Source: Candidatus Gastranaerophilales bacterium
GTDB taxonomy: Bacteria; Cyanobacteriota; Vampirovibrionia; Gastranaerophilales; Gastranaerophilaceae
Assembly (NCBI GenBank): GCA_944323625.1
Contig: CALUTD010000010.1
Location: forward strand, 1-64,000
Length of the DNA: 64,000 bases
Direction of reading: 5' to 3'
Shown piece after piece: positions 25,621 through 34,838 of this stretch (positions are counted from its first letter, which is position 1; the number at the start of each line of letters is the position of its first letter). The translations under genes and the position numbers were made by a program. The notes under the pieces were generated by a model. The model did not search any database and had not been told where the DNA came from. It saw only the letters and a list, made by a program, of their open reading frames with translations.

Positions 25621-26391
25621 TTATTGAACTTTTTTAGTTTTTAAGTATTCATTCCATTTGGTTTGAAATTTAGATTTATTTATTTGCATAAGATTTTTAG
25701 TTTTTTTTGTAAATGATTTACTTGTAAAATGTATAACTTCGGATTTAGATTGATAAATTATTTTGAAGCCCATCATTTTAAATCTTAAACACAAGTCTGT
25801 TTCTTCATAATATCCGGGAGCATATATTTCATCAAATCCGCCTGATTTATCCCATAAAAATTTTTTTATCATAAGACTTGCCCCGCAGCAATAATCAACC
25901 TCTTTTAAAATGTTATATTCATAAAACATTGGATTATTTAAATGACCTATGGAATAAACATTTCCGTCCTCAAAAATAATTGAGCCCGCGCCTTGAAGCT
26001 TTCCATTCGGATATACAAGTTTTGACCCTGCTGCCGCGCAGTTATCGTATTTATCAAGTATGTTTTTTAGTTCTAAAATGGCGTTTTTTAGTACAATTGT
26101 GTCATTATTTAATAAATATAAGTATTTTCCTTTAGCCTCTTTTGCAGCTTTATTGCAATTTCTAAGAAACCCTAAATTACTTTCATTTCTGATTATTTTT
26201 ACATTTTTTGCAAATTGTTCCAAATTTTTTGTTTCATCGGTTGAGCAATCATCAATAATTATAATTTCATAATTTACATCTTGTGTATTTTGTTTTATTG
26301 AATTTAAACATTGCATTGTATATTTAAATTGATTATAAACAGGTATAATTATTGATACATCTATTTTCTCAATCGGGGGGGGGTAAAACAC
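25621..26391 (-). CDS. Glycosyltransferase family 2 domain, downstream half of a G-tract-split gene
   Basis: A GT2 domain with VSIIIPVYNQFKYTMQCL, IIDDCSTDET, LNNDTIV (DxD-like), GGFDE and YYEETDLCLR, which adds sugars from nucleotide donors. It begins inside or just before a C9 tract (G9 on the plus strand). The only nearby start is GTG at 26391, with no clear Shine-Dalgarno. One more C, or two fewer, joins it in frame to the preceding glycosyltransferase and gives a protein of about 588 residues. I read it as the second module of one phase-variable gene, which could also be translated separately at a low level. Confidence 0.8.
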   Translation of the reverse strand: MFYPPPIEKIDVSIIIPVYNQFKYTMQCLNSIKQNTQDVNYEIIIIDDCSTDETKNLEQFAKNVKIIRNESNLGFLRNCNKAAKEAKGKYLYLLNNDTIVLKNAILELKNILDKYDNCAAAGSKLVYPNGKLQGAGSIIFEDGNVYSIGHLNNPMFYEYNILKEVDYCCGASLMIKKFLWDKSGGFDEIYAPGYYEETDLCLRFKMMGFKIIYQSKSEVIHFTSKSFTKKTKNLMQINKSKFQTKWNEYLKTKKVQ

Positions 26392-32871: not shown

Positions 32872-33640
32872 TTATAATTTATACGGATAGTCTTCTTTAA
32901 ATTCCCACCCATCCATCTCTACTAAAGCTGTACAAGAAGAACTATAACCTTGTCTACAACTATTTAAAAAGTTACTTCTTGATATATCATTTCCACCGGC
33001 CCCGGGTTGAAATAATATTGTATTCCAATCCCATGTATTAAATCGAGGTACAGTTTGAGCAAAAGCAGGATCACCATCATCATTAGATAAAATATAAAAT
33101 GAGAATATATCTTTTCCCACCTGATTAGGTTTTCTTTCTCCGTTTACATCAAACACTATGCCATCAATACATTCATCTACAAAGAACAATGAGCCATCAT
33201 TCAAATAAACCGCTGCAACATTTTCCCAATACGGTTTGTTAATTGCCTGAATTGAGTTATAATAACTTTCATTTTCTCCTAATTCTTCTATTTTTAAATA
33301 GTTTATATGTTTTAAAATATAGTTATCTAAATATTGTTTATGTTGTTCAAGTCCGCCGCATACAGACCTGCCTTCCCATTCATAACTTGGTATCCCCCAT
33401 TCGGTTTCTGAAAGTTTTATAGCATTTGTCATTACAGAATAAAACTTTTTTAATTTTGAAGCAGTTTCAGTTTTTCTATGATTTGCCATTATCATAGGCA
33501 CTGTTATTGCCGCAATAATTCCTATAACAACAAGTGTTATTAATACTTCTGCAAGAGTAAATGATAGCTTTTTAACAAAAATATTGTTAAACTTTGACTC
33601 TGTTCTACCCCCCCCCGTTGCTGTTAATTGATTTATTCAT
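32872..33640 (-). CDS. Pilin-like (type IV/II pseudopilin) protein, out of frame at a G9 tract
   Basis: The start ATG at 33640 has a strong Shine-Dalgarno (AAGGAG), but MNKSINSNGGG runs into TAG after nine G. With 8 or 11 G the frame continues ...KKLSFTLAEVLITLVVIGIIAAITVPMIMAN, the classic pilin helix, and then through the whole open frame to 32872 (about 255 residues). That frame has KLKKFYSVMTNAIKLSETEWG and ends DGWEFKEDYPYKL. The residue before the Phe is Ser, not the Gly usual for prepilin peptidase. As sequenced the gene is OFF; a protein restarted at an internal Met would lack the helix. Confidence 0.85.
33608..33616. repeat. C9/G9 homopolymer in pilin leader
   Basis: Nine C on the plus strand (G9 in the coding strand) directly after codon 8 of the pilin gene. 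Its length sets whether the FTLAEV helix and the body are in frame. Confidence 0.95.
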
Positions 33641-33664
33641 AGTTATTCTCCTTTTTTGATTAAT

Positions 33665-33692
33665 ATTATCATATATTCACAGATTTTTGCAA
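33665..33692 (-). promoter_or_regulatory. Promoter of the G-tract pilin gene
   Basis: TTGCAA, 16 bases, GATAAT on the minus strand, giving a leader of about 18 bases before the ATG at 33640. The same boxes with the same 16-base spacing, and a similar leader, occur divergently at 33906-33933. Confidence 0.6.
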
Positions 33693-33864: not shown

Positions 33865-33874
33865 CCCCCCCCCC
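33865..33874. repeat. C10 homopolymer, non-coding
   Basis: Ten C between T runs, in the spacer between the two divergent pilin-type promoters, followed by T, CC and another T run. It breaks no gene I can identify. Its length could alter promoter spacing or mRNA structure. Confidence 0.9.
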
Positions 33875-33905: not shown

Positions 33906-33933
33906 TTGCAAGAAATAAGAAATATATGATAAT
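33906..33933 (+). promoter_or_regulatory. Promoter of the truncated G-tract leader ORF
   Basis: TTGCAA, 16 bases, GATAAT, matching the divergent promoter at 33665-33692 in both boxes and spacing. GGAG and an ATG follow at about the same distances. Confidence 0.55.
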
Positions 33934-33957: not shown

Positions 33958-33999
33958 ATGAATAATTCATCAACCCGCCACGGGGGGGGGGTAAATTAA
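33958..33999 (+). CDS. Short G-tract leader ORF, paralogue of the pilin leader
   Basis: ATG after AGGAG, then MNNSSTRHGGGVN and a stop. As in the pilin gene at 33640, exactly eight codons starting MN(K/N)S precede the G tract. With 11 G the frame would extend to about 44 residues, with no pilin-like sequence. With 9 G it stops at once. I read it as the 5' end of a phase-variable pilin gene whose body was lost, or as a rearrangement partner. A hairpin follows at 34048, then an intact pilin gene. Confidence 0.5.
   Translation: MNNSSTRHGGGVN
33982..33991. repeat. G10 homopolymer in leader ORF
   Basis: Ten G directly after codon 8 of the short leader ORF, the same codon position as the tract in the divergent pilin gene. 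Confidence 0.95.
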
Positions 34000-34047
34000 G
34001 AATTAAAAACAAATTAATATTATTAAGTCATACAAATAAATTGAAGT

Positions 34048-34069
34048 CAATATTTTATTTGAAATATTG
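34048..34069 (+). terminator. Weak terminator-like hairpin
   Basis: CAATATTT and AAATATTG pair over 8 bp and are followed by GCTTTATTTTATTTT. It would separate the short leader ORF from the intact pilin gene. Confidence 0.35.
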
Positions 34070-34136
34070 GCTTTATTTTATTTTAATATAGATATATTTT
34101 GATATATAATTATTATTGCATAAAAGGATTTACATT

Positions 34137-34838
34137 ATGAAAAATATAAAAGCATTTACTTTAGCGGAAGTTCTGATTACTTTAGTTATTATTGGAATAG
34201 TCGCAGCATTTACAGTCCCCGTTTTGATAACAAACTATCAAAAAAACAAAACATGTGTTCAATTAAAGAAAATATATTCGGAATTTTCTCAGGCAGTACA
34301 AATGGCACAGGCGGAATACGGTTCACCTGAAGGATGGGATTATTCATTGCCTCCGGTAGATTTTTTTGACAAATATCTTACACCTTTTATTCAGGTATCA
34401 AGAGAAACTGTTTCTGAGGCAAAACAAGATGGTATTACATATTATGCGCTTGACGGCAGAGTCGAATCAAGTTTTATTAATTTGACTAGTAATTCTTTTA
34501 TTACAACTCTTGCATCAGGTGCGCAAGTTTTCACCGGACTTACTATATCGTCAACAGGTATGGGTAAAGAAAGAAGAAGTTTTATAGTAGATATAAACGG
34601 ATTTTCTAAACCAAATAAATTGGGTCGCGATTTATTTGGTTTTACTATTGGTCCTTTTGGTGTAAAACCTGTTATTTGGAATGATAATGAAAGTAATGAT
34701 GTTGTAAGAACAAGAGATGACTTGTTAAACGGAAGCAGCAGTTATCGTTATCAATGTAATAAAAACAGCAGAGGTTATTGGTGTGCAGCTGTTATTATGG
34801 CAGACGGTTGGGAGATAAAGGATGATTATCCTTGGTAA
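34137..34838 (+). CDS. Pilin-like (type IV/II pseudopilin) protein
   Basis: A 233-residue protein starting MKNIKA, then the pilin helix FTLAEVLITLVIIGIVAAFTVP (Phe7, Glu11). Then come LKKIYSEFSQAVQMAQAEYG and a globular domain with a C-terminal CNKNSRGYWCAAVIMADGWEIKDDYP. Pilins of this class assemble through the helix after the leader is cut off. The -1 residue is Ala rather than Gly. AAAGGA precedes the ATG; a TTG at 34116 is less likely. No prepilin peptidase, ATPase or secretin gene lies in the window. Unlike its divergent neighbour it has no G tract, so it is constitutively in frame. Confidence 0.88.
   Translation: MKNIKAFTLAEVLITLVIIGIVAAFTVPVLITNYQKNKTCVQLKKIYSEFSQAVQMAQAEYGSPEGWDYSLPPVDFFDKYLTPFIQVSRETVSEAKQDGITYYALDGRVESSFINLTSNSFITTLASGAQVFTGLTISSTGMGKERRSFIVDINGFSKPNKLGRDLFGFTIGPFGVKPVIWNDNESNDVVRTRDDLLNGSSSYRYQCNKNSRGYWCAAVIMADGWEIKDDYPW

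Follow-up and report, generated by a model that had tools for sequence, protein, structure and literature searches.

The window, that is, the whole 64-kb stretch of DNA that was analysed, carries a poly-G gene at 32872-33640 on the minus strand. The order of its elements was read from the sequence as Shine-Dalgarno site, ATG, eight codons, G9, TAG and an open pilin frame (Table 1). The sequence-only reading had claimed this layout of AAGGAG, ATG, eight codons, G9 and stop, which was confirmed at 33653-33605. It had also stated that the start would be joined to an undamaged pilin body at 8 or 11 G. With either length the leader MNKSINSN-GGG-RTESKFNNIFVKKLS indeed joins the FTLAEV pilin frame, and the frame, with the start of FTLAEVLITL at 33561, remains open as far as the TAA at 32874-32872. 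No ATG, GTG or TTG was found in this gene between the G9 tract and FTL; the next in-frame start downstream is the GTG at 33501, past most of the hydrophobic helix. The G and C runs of the window had lengths of 1-5 and then of 9, 9, 10 and 10 only.

Table 1. Features of the OFF pilin gene and of the neighbouring pilin unit, in window coordinates. The slash marks the presumed peptidase site.
Feature	Position	Strand	Basis or remark
Sigma-70-like promoter TTGCAA-N16-GATAAT, OFF pilin	33665..33692	-	9/12 match
Shine-Dalgarno AAGGAG, OFF pilin	33648..33653	-	sequence; genome consensus
ATG (33640) and 8-codon leader MNKSINSN	33617..33640	-	genome consensus MNKSxNR[HY]
G9 switch tract; 8 or 11 needed for the pilin frame	33608..33616	-	sequence and paralogue comparison
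TAG reached immediately at G9	33605..33607	-	sequence
Second half of prepilin leader in the 8/11 frame (RTESKFNNIFVKKLS), up to the presumed peptidase site S/F	33562..33607	-	
Intact mature body of the pilin (229 aa) with N_methyl helix and variable head	32872..33561	-	
G10 tract with A runs on both sides, intergenic, between divergent promoters	33865..33874	-	run-length listing
Promoter TTGCAA-N16-GATAAT, divergent leader ORF	33906..33933	+	promoter scan
Leader ORF start MNNSSTRH, neighbouring pilin unit (uORF class)	33958..33981	+	
G10 tract in leader ORF	33982..33991	+	stop 8 nt on at G10, 3 nt at G9; 100 nt read at 8/11
Terminator-like hairpin with U-rich tail, in the 8/11-frame path	34037..34080	+	arms covary across loci
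TTAATA-N16-TATAAT immediately upstream of the pilin ORF, possible second promoter	34083..34110	+	10/12 match
Second pilin gene (MKNIKA/FTLAEV) with own start codon	34137..34838	+	

The product of the OFF gene met the sequence and model criteria of a type IV pilin or pseudopilin; its expression, export and assembly are inferred. With the long leader included, the match to PF07963 was just under the cut-off of 21.2 bits (19.8 bits, E 5.8e-4), and in the whole-genome search the gene scored 22.3 bits, which is above it. TIGR02532 was also matched above its cut-off (17.6 bits). The class III criterion was fulfilled by a small residue before F at the cut site and by Glu at mature position 5; in 44 bodies F1, T2, L3 and E5 were invariant. 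The body matches the helices of PDB pilins and pseudopilins by sequence, and its AlphaFold2 model (pLDDT 90.9) consists of a helix at residues 3-55 plus a head. With Foldseek no whole-model fold match to the PDB was obtained at E<=0.001; the assignment as a pilin is thus based on the N-terminal motif and the helix, and the modelled head may be unusual. Among 67 paralogues the N-terminal helix half was near-constant and the head variable, with a median pairwise identity of 35%. Four matches to PF00437 over the cut-off (PilB/PilT-like ATPases) and one to PF01478 (prepilin peptidase) were detected in the genome.

The whole-genome profile search (1.99 Mb, 37 contigs, one assembly) resulted in 98 N_methyl genes above the PF07963 cut-off. 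The upstream count was limited to contigs 1-18, for which all tracts are listed; there, a tract was located within 330 nt upstream in 61 of 76 pilins, compared with about 1.4 tracts by chance. The class counts were drawn from 95 pilin-like genes that were read. A G tract was situated within the coding leader of 53 genes (47 OFF and 6 ON as assembled) and a C tract within that of 4 genes, all OFF. These 57 coding-tract genes, 51 OFF and 6 ON, have 8-11 G or C near the start and an open pilin frame after it. The tract was found in a short upstream ORF, followed by a pilin with its own start, in about 20 genes, and about 15 pilin-like genes had no tract. Altogether, about 80 pilin genes have a G9 or G10 run at or shortly ahead of the start, and most are OFF as assembled. 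Where the run is part of the coding sequence, as in at least 57 of these genes, one G more or less should switch the gene. The on/off control of a single pilin gene that had been proposed before is thus supported, but its extent was understated, as it concerns a genome-wide repertoire and not one switch.

The conserved leader of the family is MNKSxNR[HY]-GGG-[RK]…S/FTLAEV, and in about 90% of the leaders the tract is immediately followed by TA[A/G]. Since a shared promoter, TTGCAA-N16-18-TATGATAAT, precedes most leader ATGs (the -35/-10 pair was detected in 52 of 64), the pilin loci look independently transcribed. In the stretch between the tract and the helix, the pilin frame of 51 genes had not a single stop among 730 codons, versus 165 among the 1460 codons in the other two frames. 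This contrast is only descriptive, as the class itself is defined by openness.

The out-of-frame state might be no switch if the genes were decaying pseudogenes or if the tract lengths were errors of the assembly. Only a single assembly in 37 contigs was at hand, and some members of the family are truly broken, carrying ATC or ACG in place of the leader ATG or, in a few cases, internal stops. However, nearly all pilin bodies are full length (200-246 aa), and the OFF/OFF pair L134/L142, both with G9, had a Ka of 0.149, a Ks of 0.608 and a Ka/Ks of 0.24. These values show that the two OFF paralogues are still under purifying selection. In addition, the tract-in-leader design recurs in two other species with lengths at 9-10 in all, and Illumina sequencing was reported to be accurate for poly-G tracts of such length (PMC6321876). 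Decay or assembly error is therefore highly improbable. The sequence-only reading had considered decay unlikely, which agrees with the full-length bodies, the Ka/Ks value, the 57 open-frame paralogues and the two species with the same design. Its preference for phase variation over decay was upheld by this comparison; in the absence of reads or a second strain, the reversibility of slippage is inferred.

The run-length spectrum and the number of tracts indicate that the tract is not due to chance. In the whole genome 121 G/C tracts of at least 8 were counted, whereas about 2 were expected from run continuation; most of the 121 have a C immediately before. In 330 kb of the genome's own DNA, G runs of 5, 6, 7, 8, 9, 10 and 11 numbered 51, 5, 0, 2, 57, 41 and 6, respectively. 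As the sample consisted of loci picked for tracts of at least 8, the height of the second peak was selected, but the dip at 6-8 was not. The flank GCYAC-Gn-TA was mostly retained with either G or C on the coding strand (L016, L106, L110, L111, L062), which hints at a DNA-level motif and not at a peptide constraint alone. MutS (MutS1) is present in this genome. MutL was not found in this assembly, due to loss or an assembly gap, and is present in 19 of the 21 genomes searched. Loss of mismatch repair as the cause is not required, because the congeneric genome G008 with 79 tracts has both MutS and MutL.

In 44 of the 57 coding-tract genes, 8 or 11 was the register needed for the pilin frame, and lengths of 8, 9, 10 and 11 were all found at one leader position among paralogues. 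With 6 genes ON, the count falls below one third of 57 (p ~7e-5) but is near the value of 9.6 that the length spectrum and the register of each gene predict. The shared register is partly common descent and by itself no proof of selection for rarity. Length differences were available only between paralogues. The numbers of ON and OFF genes do not constitute proof of switching. The closest paralogue pairs were mostly equal in tract length, so recent duplicates give little evidence on slippage.

The stop right after GGG in the 9-frame of about 90% of leaders is a layout that could favour slippage, and homopolymer runs of the G9/G10 length can slip in transcription. The G tract could then be a recoding site, where ribosomal frameshifting or polymerase slippage on G9 or G10 sets a low pilin level without a change in the DNA. 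However, the tract length is not fixed, varying from 8 to 11 at the same leader position; lengths of 9 and 10 would need shifts in different directions, and C tracts on the coding strand do the same job. Recoding is thereby a very improbable account of the tract. Low-level expression from OFF alleles via frameshifting is not excluded; such a leak is possible, yet it does not explain the variable lengths at one leader position.

The large and divergent family with a common leader, more uniform than the bodies, also resembles a set of silent donor cassettes of the Neisseria pilS/pilE kind, which recombine with an expressed pilin gene, the tract being incidental. This can hardly be credited, as the loci have their own promoter, Shine-Dalgarno site and start, the pairwise identity of the bodies is low, and tracts occur also in surface-sugar genes without such a family. 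The criterion for pilE/pilS antigenic variation, i.e. donors without promoter and start, was not met.

The gene at 32872-33640 is, with high confidence, one of a large type IV pilin-like repertoire, in which each gene has its own promoter and a poly-G slippage switch in the prepilin leader. The anatomy, its repetition, the maintenance of the frame, the length spectrum and the conservation in two other species were observed, and reversible slippage in living cells is inferred. The sequence criteria of an SSR-mediated translational phase-variable gene are met, as the repeat lies near the 5' end and a length change joins the start to an intact frame. In the Neisseria Opa genes, too, the repeat lies close to the 5' end of the coding region.

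According to the proposed mechanism, slippage would switch the gene at the tract that sits eight codons past the start, within the long leader of the prepilin. The ribosome would halt immediately on TAG or TAA at 9 G, and soon after the tract at 10 G. At 8 or 11 G it would enter the pilin, and the prepilin would be cut ahead of the FTLAEV helix. Given that 9 and 10 are the common lengths whereas 8 or 11 is what the majority of the genes require, any one gene would be OFF most of the time; the pilins shown by a cell would then be a small subset, random and heritable.

The neighbouring unit at 33958-34838 represents the upstream-ORF class of about 20 loci. Here, 145 nt separate the end of the G10 tract in the leader ORF from the pilin ATG at 34137. 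The hairpin of this class was conserved across 16 loci with compensatory changes in 5 pairs (0 of 500 shuffles). In the loci of this genome the 8-frame ended within the hairpin, beyond it or at most about 12 nt short of its start, with a stop just before the hairpin at a few loci. The 9- and 10-frames ended well upstream, at +3 to +29. These observations are in accordance with transcription attenuation, which would be an addition to the translational switch and not an alternative to it. Translation of the 8/11 leader into or up to the hairpin would open the terminator and the pilin would be transcribed, whereas at 9 or 10 the ribosome would stop far upstream and transcription would end. The same upstream-ORF layout was found in G008, where the 8-frame enters an unrelated hairpin, and the mechanism has been proven for S. 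gallolyticus pil1 (PMC3894217). On the other hand, a promoter-like site lies between the hairpin and the pilin in both this genome and G008, from which the pilin could be transcribed regardless; the dependence on leader readthrough is therefore unproven. The coding signal of the short ORF was weak (pN/pS 0.85, in a codon-position test of low power), and the A/T-rich stem was not called as a terminator by a stricter scan. Attenuation is thus a tentative proposal, held at somewhat less than even confidence. The broader view is slightly more doubtful, namely that two slippage switches act in one genome on a single pilin family with about 80 members. One would be translational, with the tract in the prepilin leader, and the other transcriptional, with the tract in a leader ORF whose translation runs into a terminator. 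In both, the common lengths of 9 and 10 would mean OFF, and each cell would carry a sparse, random and heritable pilin combination.

An SD-ATG-G8 scan of 41 genomes of the genus detected the design in 12, most often in this genome, followed by G019 and G008; the reversed control pattern was near zero in the 41 genomes. The number of tracts within the genus ranged from 0 to 121. In G008 and G019 the leader peptides were different (MFINAKTR, MDNVKYR and more) with the tract at the same place. Their leader tracts were mostly OFF, often needing 8 or 11, and C-tract versions were also present; the lengths were concentrated at 9-10 in this genome and both other species. The comparison across related genomes suggested earlier thus recovered the same tract-in-leader design in two congeneric species despite different leader peptides. 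The congeneric G007, G005, G010 and G003 had 52-79 G tracts and few relatives of the OFF pilin, and these tracts must serve other gene families. No second copy of the locus from the same species was found, the contig scan resulting only in other Gastranaerophilales at 32-40% identity, the nearest named relatives, by which the organism is assigned to this order, and a pattern scan of viral contigs gave unrelated contigs only. The sequence-only reading knew of no description of such switching for Gastranaerophilales pilins, and literature searches on phase variation in Gastranaerophilales likewise resulted in nothing relevant.

Campylobacter jejuni is comparable in its 9-10 G tracts within genes, its genome of about 30% GC, its mostly surface functions and its length spectrum, in which 9 and 10 make up 53% and 26% of the Campylobacter poly-G tracts, respectively (PMC6321876). 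Phase-variable genes number 5-81 per Campylobacter strain. In contrast, mainly glycan and modification genes are affected there, whereas more than half of the 121 tracts are at pilins here, mostly in one leader design. Type IV pili are made variable also in Neisseria, where pilC is switched on and off by homopolymer tracts (PMC5953494), and N. meningitidis, N. gonorrhoeae and N. lactamica have on average 15-19 poly-G tracts per genome. However, in pilE/pilS one expressed pilin is varied by recombination with silent cassettes, while dozens of complete pilin genes with their own promoter and switch are present here. In S. gallolyticus pil1 the repeat number in a leader ORF decides on translation into a terminator upstream of the pilus genes (PMC3894217), and the upstream-ORF class has the same layout. 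The differences are GCAGA repeats, sortase pili and one operon in pil1, compared with a G tract, type IV pilin-like genes, about 20 loci and a possible second promoter here. The Opa proteins of Neisseria form one surface-protein family whose several members are unlinked and are switched independently, each by its own repeat (PMC3745409), as proposed here. The Opa system comprises about 11 genes with CTTCT repeats, in contrast to the coding switches made of G or C tracts in at least 57 pilin genes here. Campylobacter-type translational phase variation is supported as the mechanism by its working and by the sequence criteria, reversible switching being inferred, while the target, the scale and the possible transcriptional form differ.

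The best-known cases of poly-G phase variation are pathogens of the airways, the genital tract and the gut, where usually surface-decorating enzymes or a few adhesins are switched. Here, a gut commensal lineage, a non-photosynthetic cyanobacterial relative from animal guts, seems to apply it directly to the subunits of the pilus. With 121 tracts and at least 57 coding switches, the scale is above that reported for Campylobacter strains. The results suggest that the surface-fibre proteins displayed are a small random mix that differs from cell to cell, and strong cell-to-cell surface diversity is predicted under phage, immune or attachment pressure. Switching gives a testable reason for the high number of pilin genes in such genomes. 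This repertoire is easily missed, because automatic annotation probably calls most such genes pseudogenes or starts them within the helix.

Tracts were observed also outside the pilins. A G9 at 26375-26383 lies within a family 2 glycosyltransferase gene on the minus strand, which is OFF as assembled and whose halves join as a 605-aa frame at 10. At L094 (G000 C4:3500-10500) and L121 the tracts are within surface-sugar genes, of which a UDP-sugar dehydrogenase and an FdtA-like isomerase were in frame, and a DegT aminotransferase and a hexapeptide acetyltransferase were out of frame. At L096 and L129, genes for long proteins that combine an N-terminal motif of the pilin type with repeats resembling trimeric-adhesin heads have a G tract near the start, one being OFF and one ON.
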